NCBI GenBank assembly: GCA_019115525.1
Contig: DXDJ01000044.1
Location: forward strand, 1-39,897
Length of the DNA stretch: 39,897 nucleotides
Origin: Candidatus Helicobacter avistercoris
GTDB taxonomy: Bacteria; Campylobacterota; Campylobacteria; Campylobacterales; Helicobacteraceae
Reading direction: 5' to 3'
The position numbers and the translations under genes were made by a program. Below, piece by piece: positions 32,265 through 39,897 of the stretch. The notes under the pieces are model-generated. The model saw nothing but the letters and a program-made list of their open reading frames with translations, had not been told where the DNA came from and did not search any database. Within the stretch, counting starts at the first letter, position 1. Each line of letters opens with the position of its first letter.

Positions 32265-33214
32265 AAAAAATTTTTATTTTAGTTTTATTGATAGAGATTC
32301 TATCAGCAGAATTTTATGCCAAAAGCATTAAAGTTGAAAAAGTAAAAATTTCACAAGAGAGGAAATACTATGGAAGAATTGCTTTGAATGAAGAGAGTAT
32401 TTCTGTATTTAACCTCAGAGTAGATGGGTTTGTTGAAGATATAAAAGTTTCAAACTCTTATCAAAAGATAGAAAAAGGCAGTGAGCTTTTCTCAATTTAC
32501 TCTCCAGAATTGCTCCAAGCTCAAAATGAATACATCAATGCCCTCAAATACAAAAGCAATATTGTTGCGACCAAAGAGAAGCTTTTGCTTTTGGGTGTAG
32601 ATGAGAGATTGATAAAAAAAATAAAAAAAGAGAAAAAGCCCTTAAAAGTCGTGCCATTTTTTTCAAAAAATCAAGGTTTGGTGTATGAAAAAAATATCTC
32701 TGAAGGGCAATATATTAAAAAAGGGGAGAGTGTTTATAAGATTGTTGATTTAAGCTCTGTGTGGTTTATCGCTCAAATCCCACAAGAAGAGTTTGCTTTT
32801 CTTTCAAAACCCCTAAATTCAAGCATTGAGATTTTGGGAATCAATCAAAAATTCCAAGCTCAATTTTTGCAGATTATCCCCACAATCAACCCTTCAAGCA
32901 AACTTCTTGAAGCAAGGTTTTTACTCAAAAATCCAAATCTTGAACTCTTTGAAAATCTCTTTGGAATCATTACCCTCTCTCATCCAAGTAAAGAAGTGCT
33001 TTTTGTGCCAAAAGAGTGTGTGCTTTTAAGGGACAATAAACTCTATGTCTTTAAAAAAGATGAAGAAGGAAAGTTTGCTCCTCAAGAGATTGAAGCATTA
33101 AGCTTAAATGCAGGGTATGAAATCCTATCTGGGATAGAGGAGGGAGATGAGATTGCACAAAATGCTCTTTTTATCCTTGATTCTGATGCTCAAGTCAATG
33201 GGGAATATGAGTGA
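32261..33214 (+). CDS. czcB: RND efflux periplasmic adaptor CzcB (CusB-like)
   Basis: A 317-residue membrane-fusion protein with an N-terminal signal sequence. The first beta-barrel/lipoyl region (FNLRVDGFVEDIKV) is followed by IYSPELLQAQNEYINAL of the helical hairpin, a CusB-like signature. SEGQYIKKGESVYKIVDLSSVWF gives the second lipoyl half (residues ~144-166). It is short and lacks the N-terminal Met cluster used by E. coli CusB, so copper capture may fall to CrdA. It overlaps crdB and czcA, showing stoichiometric coupling. Confidence 0.9.
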   Translation: MKKIFILVLLIEILSAEFYAKSIKVEKVKISQERKYYGRIALNEESISVFNLRVDGFVEDIKVSNSYQKIEKGSELFSIYSPELLQAQNEYINALKYKSNIVATKEKLLLLGVDERLIKKIKKEKKPLKVVPFFSKNQGLVYEKNISEGQYIKKGESVYKIVDLSSVWFIAQIPQEEFAFLSKPLNSSIEILGINQKFQAQFLQIIPTINPSSKLLEARFLLKNPNLELFENLFGIITLSHPSKEVLFVPKECVLLRDNKLYVFKKDEEGKFAPQEIEALSLNAGYEILSGIEEGDEIAQNALFILDSDAQVNGEYE

Positions 33215-36200
33215 TGATTGGCAAGATTATAGAGCTTTCTGTAAAATTTAAATTCTTTGTCTTAGGGGTTTTCTTTTTCTTGATTTTGGGTTCAATTTGG
33301 GCAATTAGAGAAACCCCCGTTGATGCTCTTCCAGACCTTAGTCCTGTTCAAGTCATTTTGCAAATTGATTATGAAGGACAATCTCCTAAGGTAATCGATG
33401 AGCAAGTGAGCTTTTTGCTAACCTCTTCTCTTATGAGTGTTCCAAGAGTTGAAGTTGTGCGAGGAATGAGTAGTTATGGAAAAGGATTGGTATATGTAAT
33501 TTTTGAAGATGGCACAGATATTTATTGGGCAAATTCTAGAATCTTGGAAAAAATTACCTCTATTCTGCCTATGCTTCCTAAGGATGCAAAAATCAATTTG
33601 GGAACGGATTCTTCAGGGATAGGCTGGGCATTTATGTATGCCCTAAGCTCTAAGACAAAAACCCTTCAAGAACTTAAAGTTTTGCAGGATTTTTACTTCA
33701 AAAACAATCTTTTAGGAGTTGATGGAGTAAGCGAGATTGCAAGTGTAGGAGGATTTGAGAAAAATTATGAAGTAACGCTCAATCAAGAAAAATTGATTGA
33801 ATATGACATTGGTTTTGATGAGATTATCCAAAAAATCAGAAAATCCAACAATGATAGTGGGGGAGGGGTTATTTATCAAGGAGGATTTGAGAAAATTCTT
33901 AGTGTTTCTGGTTATCTCAAAAATATAGAAGATATTGAAAATATTGAGATTAGAAATTTCAATGGAATCCCTCTTAAGCTCTCTGATATTGCCAAAGTCA
34001 ATCTCACCCCTGCCCCAAGAAGAGGAGTGGCTGAACTCAATGGAGAGGGAGAAGTTGTAGGTGGAGTGGTGGTGGTAAGGTATGGAGCAGATACTTTCAA
34101 GGTAATTAGAGCAGTTAAGAAAAGATTGGAACAAATTGCAAAAGAGAATCCCCAAATTCAAATCTCTCCGGTATATGATCGAAGTGAGTTTATAGAAGAG
34201 GCAATTGATAATCTTTGGCATACTTTGGTTGAGGAGTGTTTAATCGTTCTTTTTGTGGTTGCGATTTTTTTGCTTCATATAAGAAGTGCTTTTATTATCG
34301 TCATTACACTTCCATTATGTGTAGCATTGAGTTTTTTGCTTATGAAGCTTTTTGGGATTAGTTCAAATATTATGAGCTTAGGGGGAATTGCCATTGCCAT
34401 TGGAGCAATGGTAGATGCTTCAATTGTTATGGTAGAAAATGCTCACAAGCATCTTTTATCTCTTCCTATGTCTCACTCAAAAGAAGATAGAGTCAAGGCG
34501 ATTATGAGGGCTTCTAAGCAGGTGGGAGGAGCTGTATTTTTCGCCCTAATGATTATAGTTATTTCTTTTTTGCCTATTTTTGGATTAAGCGGACAAGAAT
34601 CTAAACTCTTCTCTCCTTTGGCTTATACCAAAACTTTTGCGATGCTTTTGGGGGCAATCCTCTCTATTACACTTGTGCCAATTTTGATGATTTATTTTCT
34701 CAAAGGTAAAATTATTGATGAAGAAAAAAATCCTATCAATAGATTTTTTATTTTTTTATATACGCCAATCCTTAAGATAATTTTCAAGATTAAATACATT
34801 TTTTTGCTTGTCTGCTTTGGTGGCATCGTCTATATGGGGTATCTCTATACCAAACAAAAATGGGAATTTATGCCCCCACTTGATGAAGGGGTGATGATGT
34901 ATATGCCTGTTACAAATTATGGTATTAACATCCAAACATCAAAAGAATTTCTGCTTCAGAGCAACGCAATCCTTAAGCAATTCCCAGAAGTGGAAAGTGT
35001 TTTTGGAAAAGTAGGGAGTGCCAATACCCCTACAGATCCCGCACCTCTTTCGATGATAGAAACTTTTATCACTTTCAAAGACAAATCACAATGGAGAGAG
35101 GGAATGACAACTCAAAAATTACGCAATGAGTTTGAAAAAGCTATTCAGATTAAGGGGCTTACTAATTCTTGGACTTACCCTATCAAAGGAAGGATAGATA
35201 TGCTTCTAACTGGGATTCGCACCCCTTTGGGAATCAAAGTTTTTGGGAGTGATTATGATAGGATTCAGGCAATCTCATCTAAAATCGAAGAAAAATTAAG
35301 AGGGTATGATGGAACACTTTCTGTATTTGCAGAAAGAAGTAATCGAGGTTATTTTTTGGACATTGTTCTCAAAGATGAGAAACTTGCTCAATATGGCTTA
35401 AGCAAAGAGGATGTTTTGAGTTTTATCTCTCAAGGAGTGGGAGGGACAAAAATCTCAACAATCCTTAATGGTGTGGAGAGGTATGGATTGAGTGTGAGAT
35501 TTGAAGAAAAGCAACGCAAGGATTTAGAAGCAATCAAGAGTCTCTACATCAAAACAAAATTTGGATTTACCCCACTTTATGTATTGGCAGACATTTCCTA
35601 TCAAGAATCAGCCCTTGAATTTAAAAATGAGGGAGGGTTGAAAGTAAATTTTATCTATATTACCCCCAAAGATTCCATAACCTCAGATACCTACAAGCAA
35701 GAAGCAAGAAAAATACTTCAAGATTTGCAGATGCCTAGTGGATATTATTATGAGTTTTCAGGGGAGAGTGAGTATCTTGAAAAATCTTTGCAAAAAATGC
35801 AAGTGATTATCCCTATCACTCTTTTGCTTATCTTTGTTTTGATTCTTTTGGCTTTGAAAAACTTTGTTTATAGCTTGATTGTTTTTTTCACGCTTCCTTT
35901 TGCGATTTTAGGAGGGCTATTGACAATTGATTGGCTTGGATACAATCTAAGTATCGCTGTGGTTGTGGGATTTTTGGCGTTGCTAGGAGTGGCAACAGAG
36001 ACGGCGATTGTGATGATTATCTATCTTGATGAATCAATGAAGAAAAATACAAATCAAACTCTTAAAGAAAGAGTAATTGATGGGGCAAGTAAAAGGGTGC
36101 GACCCAAACTTATGACAACGCTCTCTTTGGTGCTCTCTCTTGTGCCTATTATGTTTAATGAAGGAATTGGAAGCGAAGTGATGAAAAGAGTATCAGCCCC

Positions 36201-36294
36201 AATGCTTGGAGGGATTGTCAGCTCAATGATTCTGACACTTTTTATCATCCCTATTTGTGTGTATCTCTATGAAAAAAGCTTTGTGAGAAGATAG
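33214..36294 (+). CDS. czcA: heavy-metal RND efflux pump CzcA, CusA (Cu/Ag) subtype
   Basis: A 1026-residue inner-membrane RND pump with 12 predicted transmembrane helices and two large periplasmic loops. The TM4 motif is GAMVDASIVMVENAHK (D401), the form found in monovalent Cu/Ag pumps (CusA group) and not in Zn/Co pumps. Met residues in APLSMIET and in GRIDMLLTGI occur at the same spacing as in E. coli CusA, where they belong to the copper site. The gene name follows H. pylori HP1329. The stop codon TAG runs into a 13-G tract. Confidence 0.93.
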   Translation: MIGKIIELSVKFKFFVLGVFFFLILGSIWAIRETPVDALPDLSPVQVILQIDYEGQSPKVIDEQVSFLLTSSLMSVPRVEVVRGMSSYGKGLVYVIFEDGTDIYWANSRILEKITSILPMLPKDAKINLGTDSSGIGWAFMYALSSKTKTLQELKVLQDFYFKNNLLGVDGVSEIASVGGFEKNYEVTLNQEKLIEYDIGFDEIIQKIRKSNNDSGGGVIYQGGFEKILSVSGYLKNIEDIENIEIRNFNGIPLKLSDIAKVNLTPAPRRGVAELNGEGEVVGGVVVVRYGADTFKVIRAVKKRLEQIAKENPQIQISPVYDRSEFIEEAIDNLWHTLVEECLIVLFVVAIFLLHIRSAFIIVITLPLCVALSFLLMKLFGISSNIMSLGGIAIAIGAMVDASIVMVENAHKHLLSLPMSHSKEDRVKAIMRASKQVGGAVFFALMIIVISFLPIFGLSGQESKLFSPLAYTKTFAMLLGAILSITLVPILMIYFLKGKIIDEEKNPINRFFIFLYTPILKIIFKIKYIFLLVCFGGIVYMGYLYTKQKWEFMPPLDEGVMMYMPVTNYGINIQTSKEFLLQSNAILKQFPEVESVFGKVGSANTPTDPAPLSMIETFITFKDKSQWREGMTTQKLRNEFEKAIQIKGLTNSWTYPIKGRIDMLLTGIRTPLGIKVFGSDYDRIQAISSKIEEKLRGYDGTLSVFAERSNRGYFLDIVLKDEKLAQYGLSKEDVLSFISQGVGGTKISTILNGVERYGLSVRFEEKQRKDLEAIKSLYIKTKFGFTPLYVLADISYQESALEFKNEGGLKVNFIYITPKDSITSDTYKQEARKILQDLQMPSGYYYEFSGESEYLEKSLQKMQVIIPITLLLIFVLILLALKNFVYSLIVFFTLPFAILGGLLTIDWLGYNLSIAVVVGFLALLGVATETAIVMIIYLDESMKKNTNQTLKERVIDGASKRVRPKLMTTLSLVLSLVPIMFNEGIGSEVMKRVSAPMLGGIVSSMILTLFIIPICVYLYEKSFVRR

Positions 36295-36306
36295 GGGGGG
36301 GGGGGG
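36294..36306 (+). repeat. homopolymeric 13-G tract
   Basis: Thirteen consecutive G's start at the last base of the czcA TAG stop and end one base before the stop codon of the convergent gene at 36308. Such tracts mutate in length at high rate in Helicobacter and Campylobacter. Here length change would not alter either reading frame. Confidence 0.95.
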
Positions 36307-36307
36307 A

Positions 36308-36832
36308 TTAGATCTTGTATTCTTTTGAGAGAGTGATGTAATGCTTTGCAGATTTACCAATAAATCTTACTTCTTCCTCACTTAGCTCTCTTACAAGCTT
36401 TGCAGGATTTCCCATAATCAAAGAGCGTGGAGGGAAAGTCTTGTTTTTGGTAATAAGTGAGTTTGCCCCAATAATGCTTTGAGAGCCAATCACTGCTCCA
36501 TCCATCACAATGCTTCCCATCCCCACAAGCACCTCATCGCCAATCTCACAAGCGTGGATAATACAGCGATGCCCCACAGTGACATTTTTTCCGATTTTCA
36601 CATTTCCTGCTCCATCGTGAGGGTGATCTACATGCAGATTGCTCAGCTCTTGGATATTACTCCCCTCATCGATAGAGATACTGTTGAGATCTGCTCGGAT
36701 CACGCTCCCAAACCAGATACTACAATCTTTGGCGATCTTCACATCTCCGATGATTGCGGTCTGAGGGAAAAGGATGGCTTGGGGGTGGATGTGGGGGGTC
36801 TTGTCTTGGAAAGGCAGGATGAGAGAGTTCAT
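36308..36832 (-). CDS. gamma-carbonic-anhydrase-like hexapeptide-repeat protein
   Basis: A 174-residue left-handed beta-helix protein. Hexapeptide repeats run through residues ~25-130, and the putative zinc-site His residues are in NLHVDHPHDG and VGHRCIIHAC. A C-terminal helix follows. The family includes gamma carbonic anhydrases and YrdA-type proteins of unclear activity, so catalysis cannot be assumed. The ATG at 36832 has AAAGGA upstream at about 7 nt; an upstream ATG at 36877 overlaps the promoter region and is rejected. A beta-class enzyme is also encoded at 11374. Confidence 0.88.
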   Translation of the reverse strand: MNSLILPFQDKTPHIHPQAILFPQTAIIGDVKIAKDCSIWFGSVIRADLNSISIDEGSNIQELSNLHVDHPHDGAGNVKIGKNVTVGHRCIIHACEIGDEVLVGMGSIVMDGAVIGSQSIIGANSLITKNKTFPPRSLIMGNPAKLVRELSEEEVRFIGKSAKHYITLSKEYKI

Positions 36833-36866
36833 AAGAATCCTTTTGGTAAAATATGATAGATTAGAT

Positions 36867-36874
36867 ATTATAAT
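36867..36874. promoter_or_regulatory. palindromic -10 box shared by divergent promoters
   Basis: ATTATAAT is its own reverse complement and gives TATAAT on both strands: 36869-36874 for the plus-strand autotransporter and 36867-36872 for the minus-strand hexapeptide gene. Expected leaders are about 20 and 28 nt. The two promoters could not be occupied at the same time. Confidence 0.5.
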
Positions 36875-36901
36875 CACTTAAGCTTAGAGATGGAGAAATT
36901 T

Positions 36902-39454
36902 ATGCTCAAAAAATCAGTTTTAAGCCTTTGTTTGTTTGGAGGGGGAGAAGTGGTGTGGGGGCTTTCTTCAGAGTGGGAGGGGAGAAATAAGGAATCTTCG
37001 GCTGTTTTAAGTGGTGGAGCTAGTCAAACGGTGATTCTAAAAAGAGATTCGAGTCTCCCAACTAGTAGAGGAAACAATTTTAAGCTTTATGATTTCATTT
37101 ACTCTACCTCAGGCACAGGTTCTTCCTCTCTCACGCTTCAAAAAGATCCCAATATGCCAAGCACAAGCACGAAAAGGGATATGCAACTTTATGTGAAAGG
37201 CACAGTTGAGGCTAGAAGCAATAGTCATCTAACCCTACAACTTGATAGCAAAGGAATTGATGGAGGGCTTTTAATCCATGGTGGATCACTTTATGCCAAT
37301 GGGGGCACCATTACTATCAAAAGTGTCAAGATCATTTCTGTGGCTGATACTAGTGGGGGGCAAATCCGTATCGGCAATTCGGGGAAAGTTGAGATTAGTG
37401 ATGTGGATCGCTTCAGGATGGATTCTGAAAATCGAGCAGGTATCTTAAATGAAGGGGGAGAATTTATTCTCCATGGGAATCTAGATAATTATCTCAGTTC
37501 GAGCACTAGCCGTTCTTATGTTGGCTCTGGATTTGTCTATCATAAATCTGGGACAACAACTATCAAAGGAGATGTGAATAACACAGGATCTAAAACATTT
37601 GGAGGTTCTAGCAATGTGGATCACTCTAAAATCAGAGTTGAGAATGGGGTTTTTAGGGTTGAGGGAAATTTTTTGAATGGTGGTGGGAAAAATACTACCG
37701 ATGGAACCTATGCAAGAGGAATCTTAGAGATCACAGGGGGGAGGGTAGAAATCACAGGCAATCTTCAAAGCCGAATCGATTCTCCTGATCCCAATCACGC
37801 TCACTCTCAAATCGTCCTAAGTGGTAGTGCGATACTTACTGCAAACTCTATAGAAAACAAGGCTGGAAGCGACATCACCCTCAGCAATGCCTCACAGATC
37901 AATACCACCACAAGCTTCACTTCCGATGGTTTGGTGCATTTCGTAGGCGAGGGGAGTGGATTTGGGAAAATCTCTGGAGGGAGTATCGCACTTGCTGGAG
38001 AAGAGAGATACAGTATCACTAGTGCTTTTGCCCCAACTGCCAATCTCAGATACCTCATCATCGAGGGCACTTCAGTGAGCGGGGTGAGTGAGGGTGCGAT
38101 AACTCTTTTGGACGCAAGTGGATCCCCCGCAGACCGCTACAAAGCCAAGCTAGAAAAAGAAACCAATCAAGGCGAAAAATACTACATCACTCTTGAAAAG
38201 ATCGGAGGTAGCACAGGGGGCGGTGGCGGAAGTGGAGGAGGAAGCACAGGGGGAGGAAGTGGTGGAAACACAGGAAGTGGTGGAGGGAATGGGGGTAATA
38301 CTGGGGGAGGGGGCAACACAGGAAATGGAGGGGGTAGCACAGGTGGTGGAGATGATAGCAGTGAGGGGGGCAATGATAATCCCACACCTCCTAAGTCTGA
38401 CAAAGACATCATCTCTTCTGCTCTAGACTCTCGCTATCTCATCCTCACCCAAAAGGATCTAGACCAAGCCACAGAGACGATCAAATCCCAAATCGATTCT
38501 TTGCAAAGCAAGTCAAGATTTTTGGATGTCTCGATGCATTTTTGGACAGTGAGTATGCACCAAGCCCCTACCCAAGCCCTCACTAAGGTTGAGCTTGCCT
38601 ATGATTCTACTCTCTCTCCTTTCTCTCCCCAACAAGACATCCCCACGCCTTTGTTTGAAGAAAAAAGAGATGAAATCTTTGTCAATGCCCTTGTAGGCTA
38701 CGAGGGGGATGGAGAGGGTGGAGGGCTAAGCTATGGGCTAAATGCTGGATACAACCACAGGGGAGAGAGTGGGGTCTTTGGGGTTTATGGACTGATCAAA
38801 AAGACAGGCTATGGCTCAACCCTTAGCTCTTCGGATTCTTTGCAGTGGGAAGTGGGGGCTTATGGGAGGGTGTTTTTGCCTCAAGAGTGGGAGATGGATA
38901 TTCTTGGATTCTACTCCAACACTCACACAAGCTACAATCGAGATTTCTCTATCAACTCCACACTCCAAAAGCAAGATGGAGCTTATGGCTTAGAAAATAT
39001 TGATTTGCATTTGAGATTGGGTCATCGCTTTGAGCTAGAGGATGGGAATTCTCTCAAGCCTTATTTTGGAGTGGCTCTTGATTATTATATCTCTCCTGCA
39101 TACTCTGAGAGTGGGGAGCTTCCTTTGTATCGGCATCACTATGAGGGGCTTGGGGGCTATGGTATCGCGGGATTGGAGTATCGCAAATACTTCTTGCGAT
39201 CTAGTCTTTTCTTTGCCACAGAGGTTGTGGCAGGGTCTTCACTCTGTGGGAGTGACTATCGTGTGCGACTAGGGGAGAATCCTCAAAACACCATCACCTA
39301 TGATCGCGGACTTGATCTGATGCTCAATGCATTTGTAGGAGCAGATTTTGCCCTCACAGAGTCTCTAGATCTCAATGTGTTCATCAAGACCCAATACGCC
39401 TATCCTAGCTCTTATATGGTGGATGGGAATGTGGGATTGAGGTTTTTGTTTTAG
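36902..39454 (+). CDS. autotransporter (type Va) with Gly-rich linker
   Basis: An 850-residue surface protein. A signal peptide covers residues ~1-20. Residues ~30-430 have the repeating short-strand pattern of a parallel beta-helix passenger, with repeated GTVEAR, GGTITIK and GRVEITGN elements. A 49-residue linker of Gly, Ser, Thr and Asn (residues 435-483) leads into a Pro-containing hinge. The last ~300 residues form a 12-strand autotransporter beta-domain ending GLRFLF. The ATG at 36902 is chosen for GGAG 6 nt upstream; an ATG at 36890 is possible. The G+C content is higher than that of the genes before and after. The passenger function is unknown. Confidence 0.88.
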   Translation: MLKKSVLSLCLFGGGEVVWGLSSEWEGRNKESSAVLSGGASQTVILKRDSSLPTSRGNNFKLYDFIYSTSGTGSSSLTLQKDPNMPSTSTKRDMQLYVKGTVEARSNSHLTLQLDSKGIDGGLLIHGGSLYANGGTITIKSVKIISVADTSGGQIRIGNSGKVEISDVDRFRMDSENRAGILNEGGEFILHGNLDNYLSSSTSRSYVGSGFVYHKSGTTTIKGDVNNTGSKTFGGSSNVDHSKIRVENGVFRVEGNFLNGGGKNTTDGTYARGILEITGGRVEITGNLQSRIDSPDPNHAHSQIVLSGSAILTANSIENKAGSDITLSNASQINTTTSFTSDGLVHFVGEGSGFGKISGGSIALAGEERYSITSAFAPTANLRYLIIEGTSVSGVSEGAITLLDASGSPADRYKAKLEKETNQGEKYYITLEKIGGSTGGGGGSGGGSTGGGSGGNTGSGGGNGGNTGGGGNTGNGGGSTGGGDDSSEGGNDNPTPPKSDKDIISSALDSRYLILTQKDLDQATETIKSQIDSLQSKSRFLDVSMHFWTVSMHQAPTQALTKVELAYDSTLSPFSPQQDIPTPLFEEKRDEIFVNALVGYEGDGEGGGLSYGLNAGYNHRGESGVFGVYGLIKKTGYGSTLSSSDSLQWEVGAYGRVFLPQEWEMDILGFYSNTHTSYNRDFSINSTLQKQDGAYGLENIDLHLRLGHRFELEDGNSLKPYFGVALDYYISPAYSESGELPLYRHHYEGLGGYGIAGLEYRKYFLRSSLFFATEVVAGSSLCGSDYRVRLGENPQNTITYDRGLDLMLNAFVGADFALTESLDLNVFIKTQYAYPSSYMVDGNVGLRFLF
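38204..38350 (+). repeat. Gly/Ser/Thr/Asn low-complexity repeat in the autotransporter
   Basis: A 147-nt G-rich stretch made of short imperfect units such as GGTGGAGGG, GGAAGC and GGAAACACAGG, all in frame. It encodes a flexible linker between passenger and barrel. The imperfect repetition makes in-frame length change by slippage or recombination likely. Confidence 0.85.
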
Positions 39455-39463
39455 GGGGGGGGG
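39454..39463 (+). repeat. homopolymeric 10-G tract in a promoter
   Basis: Ten G's start at the last base of the autotransporter TAG stop. They end 13 bp before TATAAT (39477), so they fill the -35 region of the next gene's promoter. Length change would move the -35 region and upstream contacts relative to the -10 box. Confidence 0.95.
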
Positions 39464-39474
39464 TTGAGAATTTT

Positions 39475-39482
39475 TGTATAAT
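39475..39482 (+). promoter_or_regulatory. extended -10 promoter of the sialyltransferase gene
   Basis: TGTATAAT, a perfect TATAAT with bases upstream of it close to the extended -10 form. Transcription would begin near 39489, leaving a leader of about 16 nt that includes AAGGAG (39494-39499). The region where a -35 should lie is the G tract. Confidence 0.6.
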
Positions 39483-39504
39483 TGAGGTTTTTTAAGGAGT
39501 GCAA

Positions 39505-39897
39505 ATGAAACCCATCATCATCGCAGGCAATGGCCCCTCACTCGCTCAGATCGACTACACAAGACTCCCCAAAGATTTTGATGTCTTTCGGTGCAATCAA
39601 TTTTATTTTGAAGATAAATATTTTTTGGGAAAGAAAATTAAGGGGGTGTTTTTTAATTCCAATATTATCAAGGAGCAAATTTTTACACTTTTACAAATAG
39701 AAACAAATAATGAATACGACATTGACAGGATATATTGTCGTCCTAGACTAGATAATGGCGAGATTAGAATTGATGATAAAAAGATTTCCGAAGTCTTTCC
39801 TTTTGTCCTAAATACCTATGATTTTCTTATAAAACAAAATGATTATTCAAAACTTGAATTTTCATATCGATATTTTTATGATCAATATCCAACAATG
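39505..39897 (+). CDS. GT42 sialyltransferase (Cst-II-like), N-terminal part
   Basis: The first 131 codons of a gene cut by the window end. The N terminus closely follows Campylobacter Cst-II: IIIAGNGPSL, then YTRLPKDFDVFRCNQFYFED and KYFLGKK, including the Asn-Gln pair (CNQ) of the CMP-sialic acid site. GT42 enzymes add sialic acid to lipo-oligosaccharide, giving host-like glycans. After residue ~45 the match weakens; near the edge YDQYPTM lies where Cst-II has NQRITSG, so the Arg there seems to be Tyr. Donor and linkage cannot be told. The first 96 nt are about 48% G+C and the rest about 26% (hand counts), suggesting a mosaic gene. AAGGAG lies 5 nt before the ATG. Confidence 0.88.
   Translation, partial: MKPIIIAGNGPSLAQIDYTRLPKDFDVFRCNQFYFEDKYFLGKKIKGVFFNSNIIKEQIFTLLQIETNNEYDIDRIYCRPRLDNGEIRIDDKKISEVFPFVLNTYDFLIKQNDYSKLEFSYRYFYDQYPTM

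Follow-up and report, generated by a model that had tools for sequence, protein, structure and literature searches.

A Cst-II-like sialyltransferase gene of a Helicobacter with a coding G tract and a second G tract at its putative promoter

The sialyltransferase gene at the end of the window, here called cst1, may carry two slippable tracts of guanines. A tract of eleven (G11) in the coding sequence would act as the main switch, and a tract of ten (G10) at the putative promoter probably tunes the level of the transcript; we regard this reading as evenly poised between right and wrong. We infer that either tract varies in length, that the predicted -10 box is functional and that the output of the gene is influenced by the promoter tract. 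The window is the whole stretch of DNA analysed, 39,897 nt, and represents contig C30 in its entirety; the end of this contig falls inside cst1, and the remaining part of the gene is assigned below to a second contig, C50 (Table 1).

Table 1. Positions of the genes and sequence elements discussed for the cst1 region.
Feature	Position	Strand	Remarks
RND efflux pump gene (ACR_tran)	33211..36294	+	PF00873, E 1e-212; neighbour, outside the system
G13 tract	36294..36306	+	between the stop codons of the convergent RND and hexapeptide genes
Hexapeptide (gamma-carbonic-anhydrase-like) protein	36308..36877	-	synteny anchor
Autotransporter gene, 854 aa	36890..39454	+	PF03797, E 1.4e-11
T-rich block TTTTTGTTTTA	39443..39453	+	candidate upstream promoter contact, from the sequence and by inference from PMC4081817 and PMC3847290
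G10 tract	39454..39463	+	spans about -35 to -26 for a start site near 39489
TATAAT, predicted -10 box	39477..39482	+	sequence, background frequency
AAGGAG, predicted ribosome-binding site	39494..39499	+	sequence
cst1 5' part, 131 codons, GT42 sialyltransferase	39505..39897	+	PF06002; ends at the contig end
cst1 3' part, with coding G11 at L003:69-79	contig C50:1-496 (L003)		outside the window

The 5' part of cst1 matches the PF06002 (CST-I) profile over residues 4-126 (E 6.7e-32; 111.6 bits against a cut-off of 25), which bears out the original prediction of a GT42 reading frame starting at the ATG at 39505. A relative in H. brantae that is 60% identical to this part can be aligned along its entire length with solved Cst-II structures (2wqq, E 3e-63). 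When the genome was searched with the family profile, four matches emerged: the 5' part of cst1, one complete further gene located on C50, and two fragments right at the beginning of that contig. The two fragments lie in different frames and together correspond to the C-terminal half of a sialyltransferase that the G11 tract interrupts. In comparison with H. brantae Cst1, the match of the window (131 residues) stops at residue 129 and that of C50 starts at residue 133, with 81% identity across the next 32 residues. The start of C50 is thus the sole place in the genome that is able to hold the missing half of cst1. The ends of C30 and C50 have no word of 12 nt or more in common and, as they do not overlap, the join of the two contigs rests on synteny and homology. 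The gene order hexapeptide gene - cst1 - neuA - neuC - neuB - symporter - cst2, in which the sialic-acid genes neuA, neuC and neuB adjoin cst1, is common to H. brantae and to C30 plus C50; the compared genes are 71-88% identical, and H. brantae has one additional gene before cst2. This conserved order is strong support for joining the two contigs. The hexapeptide protein is 71% identical to the product of the gene directly upstream of H. brantae cst1. The gene is of the Cst-II-like (GT42) type, and the Helicobacter that carries it has H. brantae and H. pametensis among its relatives.

As assembled, the reading frame of cst1 is split over two contigs and is out of frame at G11; the whole family domain is encoded, and the orthologue of H. 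brantae is full length. The tract of at least eight G inside the cst1 reading frame lies at positions 69-79 of C50, just 3' of the conserved LTGIDFY motif, and counts eleven G, a length that, like that of G10, may be wrong in a draft assembly. At the assembled length the frame is shifted and a stop codon follows soon after, whereas H. brantae cst1 has a G11 at the same codon that is in frame there. The catalytic histidine known from Cst-II falls 3' of the tract in cst1. Slippage in G11 during replication would shift the frame and cut off the enzyme before its C-terminal half, and the tract would thus represent a translational on/off switch of cst1, most likely the main one. The usual coding-tract switch accordingly seems to be present in this gene, provided that the tract varies in length, and since cst1 already has it the promoter G10 would not be a substitute. 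The original prediction had assumed control through the promoter instead of the coding region. The location of a tract at the putative promoter is supported by our analysis, but the coding G11 of the same gene takes away the 'instead'. The interpretation was only partly right because half of cst1 had been seen; a contig break can conceal the more ordinary switch, as it did in cst1.

Inspection of the sequence upstream of the gene confirmed the anatomy that had been described for it, i.e. the G10 tract, 13 nt, TATAAT, AAGGAG and the ATG, all in their places; the tract opens with a G that also completes the TAG stop codon of the autotransporter gene. Among 41-nt stretches sampled from the genome, 1.0% contain TATAAT, and among AT-rich ones 2.7% do. 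Its occurrence at cst1 exceeds chance for the AT content, and it is normally placed, starting 28 nt before the ATG, close to the position found in other genes of the window; we assume that it serves as the -10 box. Sigma-70 promoters of C. jejuni and H. pylori feature a gnTAnaAT -10 element and, around -7, -17, -27 and -38, T-rich steps; they have no -35 box (PMC3847290). The g of this consensus is missing from the expected place at cst1, which counts against the promoter reading. A promoter scan for -35/-10 pairs found none at the cst1 site, as is expected because the promoters of this group use no -35. The statement that the tract fills the -35 region is correct in its geometry, with GGGGGG at 39454-39459 in 17-nt spacing from TATAAT, but loses weight since the sigma-70 promoters of C. 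jejuni and H. pylori are devoid of a -35 box (PMC3847290).

No other cst gene that we examined in the genus has an upstream G tract; the survey covered 42 cst genes in the family with all members of the genus included. Several cst genes in the family have upstream tracts at a promoter-like distance (-52 to -118), but most of these were rejected because they belong to an upstream reading frame or to the 3' end of an adjacent gene, often a tandem cst; only one locus, L175 (G100:C19), holds up as a promoter tract. Here, the cst start is preceded at a distance of about 50 nt by TTGACT-TTC-G14-C-TATAAT with an 18-nt spacer, and G097, a relative of G100, has only G4 at the place of G14. No coding tract was found in this cst gene of G100. 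L175 hence appears to be a cleaner candidate than the window for transcriptional phase variation of sialylation. Tracts of C are present towards the 3' ends of cst genes: the second cst gene, on C50, carries a C13 there (L003:5626-5638), and C10-C12 occur in several such genes of the genus (L047, L049, L050, L051, L177). These tracts fit the switching of C-terminal sequences described for H. canadensis (PMC2823697).

The original prediction went further and took the promoter tract for the main on/off switch of sialylation, similar to the situation in Neisseria porA. The short distance between G10 and the -10 box is in agreement with such a function, and the cst gene of G100 illustrates that G tracts can come about in the promoters of cst genes. 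In porA, the G tract forms the spacer between -35 and -10. G10, however, is located outside the fixed 13-nt gap to the -10 box, promoters of this group have no -35, and a coding tract that is out of frame would override whatever the promoter tract does. We therefore consider a main on/off function of G10 very unlikely.

A graded effect of G10 is the alternative that we prefer. On its 3' side the tract is followed by the predicted -10 box, and its 5' side directly adjoins the T-rich block TTTTTGTTTTA, which may be contacted by RNA polymerase; the length of the tract would set the distance and the facing of these two elements. If transcription starts near 39489, G10 would span -35 to -26, replace the T-rich step at -27 and separate the -10 box from the T-rich block farther upstream, an arrangement that fits graded control of the sabA type. 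A change in the length of G10 would then tune the cst1 transcript stepwise, as is the case for the T-tract of H. pylori sabA, for which a mechanism based on distance and facing was proposed with direct evidence (PMC4081817). Because epsilonproteobacterial sigma-70 promoters lack a -35 box, such a control of the level would be likelier for G10 than an on/off function, and the tract probably works as a dimmer that supplements the ordinary on/off switch. The parallel to sabA had already been drawn in the original prediction; it is valid for the presence of a promoter tract, but the tract of sabA is poly-T, not poly-G (PMC4081817).

G tracts are, on the other hand, a common feature of this genome. 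The window contains two runs of at least eight G, i.e. nine overlapping 8-mer matches versus 0.32 expected from dinucleotide shuffles, and since the genome as a whole has 48 such runs a single tract is not rare here. Nine of about 16 truly intergenic tracts outside a dispersed repeat are located no more than 20 nt 3' of a stop codon, versus 11.6% of intergenic DNA as sampled from the window plus C50; this excess (binomial p about 2e-5) was chosen post hoc and is based on simple reading-frame calls and hand sorting. The other tract of the window, G13, is squeezed between two convergent stops and cannot serve either flanking gene as a promoter tract, because both genes converge on it. G10 could likewise be a post-stop bystander with little or no effect on transcription, in which case only the coding G11 would switch cst1. 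That no further cst gene examined in the genus has a promoter tract is in line with this explanation, and because the tracts of this genome often directly follow stop codons it is a serious rival. The good -10 box 13 nt downstream of the tract and at the usual distance from the ATG argues against a bystander, and a change in length at this position shifts the upstream spacing whatever the origin of the tract. We regard the bystander explanation as serious but rather doubtful.

G tracts directly 3' of stop codons are found at 36294-36306 of the window and at L106:1595, L090:1502, L093:1502, L107:4849 and L114:20, and several of the post-stop tracts stand between convergent genes. The dispersed repeat is an element of about 140-200 nt in at least 11 copies, with several conserved stretches besides a likely hairpin that carries a G tract of at least nine in its loop (CCATCCCTA-Gn-TAAGGGATGG). 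Copies are located at L079, L085, L094, L097, L108, L111 and L115 and at the contig ends L083, L104, L105 and L109, and several contigs break off within the G tract of the element; an Rfam search with the element yielded no credible family match. Six large, probably autotransporter-like genes (L074, L076, L081, L088, L113, L116) have G11-G12 near the start codon, which is typical of translational phase variation. The gene of L113 combines an intergenic G14 upstream (1506-1519) with a G11 in the 5' coding region (1658-1668).

The autotransporter gene of the window lies between the hexapeptide gene and cst1 and is absent at this place in H. brantae; in the five other genomes of the genus, only remote relatives (23-36% identity across part of their length) were found, in two of them. 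Since it separates cst1 from an upstream region of the H. brantae type, cst1 needs either its own promoter or read-through. In the latter case cst1 would be co-transcribed with the autotransporter gene, and G10 would be part of the mRNA and act at the RNA level, for example as the target of a C/U-rich small RNA, comparable to RepG and the G-repeat in the tlpB leader of H. pylori. The two genes are on the same strand with 50 nt from stop codon to ATG, no terminator-like site was found between them, and the control of LPS by RepG via a G-repeat in a leader is established in H. pylori (PMC8295292). However, a -10 box between tract and ATG would yield a transcript that lacks the tract, homologues of RepG are reported from gastric species (PMC8295292) whereas the present organism is probably not gastric, and the mRNA around the junction of the two genes does not fold better than shuffled sequences (z 0.35). 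Co-transcription with an RNA-level function of G10 is therefore improbable. An Rfam search of the window matched nothing besides a 5' portion of 16S rRNA (positions 1-341).

Returning to a promoter of its own for cst1, we tentatively suggest, at less than even confidence, that the gene has two contingency tracts that are independent of each other, one a frame switch within the coding sequence and the other a G-tract rheostat in the promoter, which would have arisen where the autotransporter gene came to front cst1. If the reading with two tracts is true, promoter G tracts arose independently at least two times on GT42 genes, here and in G100, and sialylation has an on/off setting as well as a level setting. 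The combination of a coding switch and a promoter tract in one gene would allow one to ask if selection acts separately on the level and on the on/off state. Surface glycans that carry sialic acid imitate molecules of the host, and the way they vary shapes recognition by the host; in H. bizzozeronii, for instance, the TLR2 response is lowered by sialylation of the LPS (PMC4299687).

Neither dual tracts nor promoter G tracts are new in Helicobacter, as sabA has a promoter tract plus a coding repeat and H. canadensis has promoter tracts. Neisseria porA has a G tract in the promoter, as cst1 probably does; the spacer arrangement of porA is found in the cst gene of G100 (L175) but not in the window, where the gap of 13 nt is fixed and the scan revealed no -35/-10 pair at the cst1 site. 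H. pylori sabA, in which a T-tract rheostat of the promoter is combined with a coding CT repeat, resembles cst1 in its relation to the cell surface, in its coding repeat and in the homopolymer that precedes the core of a Helicobacter sigma-70 promoter, which for cst1 is a predicted one; it differs in that its tract is poly-T, in that it codes for an adhesin for sialic acid and not for an enzyme that adds it, and in that the effect was measured for sabA and is deduced for cst1 (PMC4081817). In H. canadensis, a member of the same family, promoter poly-G tracts of 10-20, many coding tracts and 3'-end tracts are present as well, and five promoter tracts, four of them poly-G, showed ranges of length in the reads; these are located upstream of autotransporter-like or hypothetical genes, and none is listed on a sialyltransferase (PMC2823697). 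The GT42 genes of Campylobacter and H. bizzozeronii (cst-II, cst-III and hbs2) have the enzyme family and nearby sialic-acid genes in common with cst1, and their sialylated surface glycans vary, as those of cst1 may; H. bizzozeronii produces a phase-variable sialylated LPS (PMC4299687); in contrast to cst1, the portions of the literature at hand describe variation in the coding region or by premature stops for these genes and not a promoter G tract. The tlpB-hp0102 locus of H. pylori, finally, is similar to the reading proposed for cst1 in that a G-repeat upstream of an LPS glycosyltransferase operon confers graded control, but there the repeat is part of the transcribed leader and is read by the small RNA RepG (PMC8295292).
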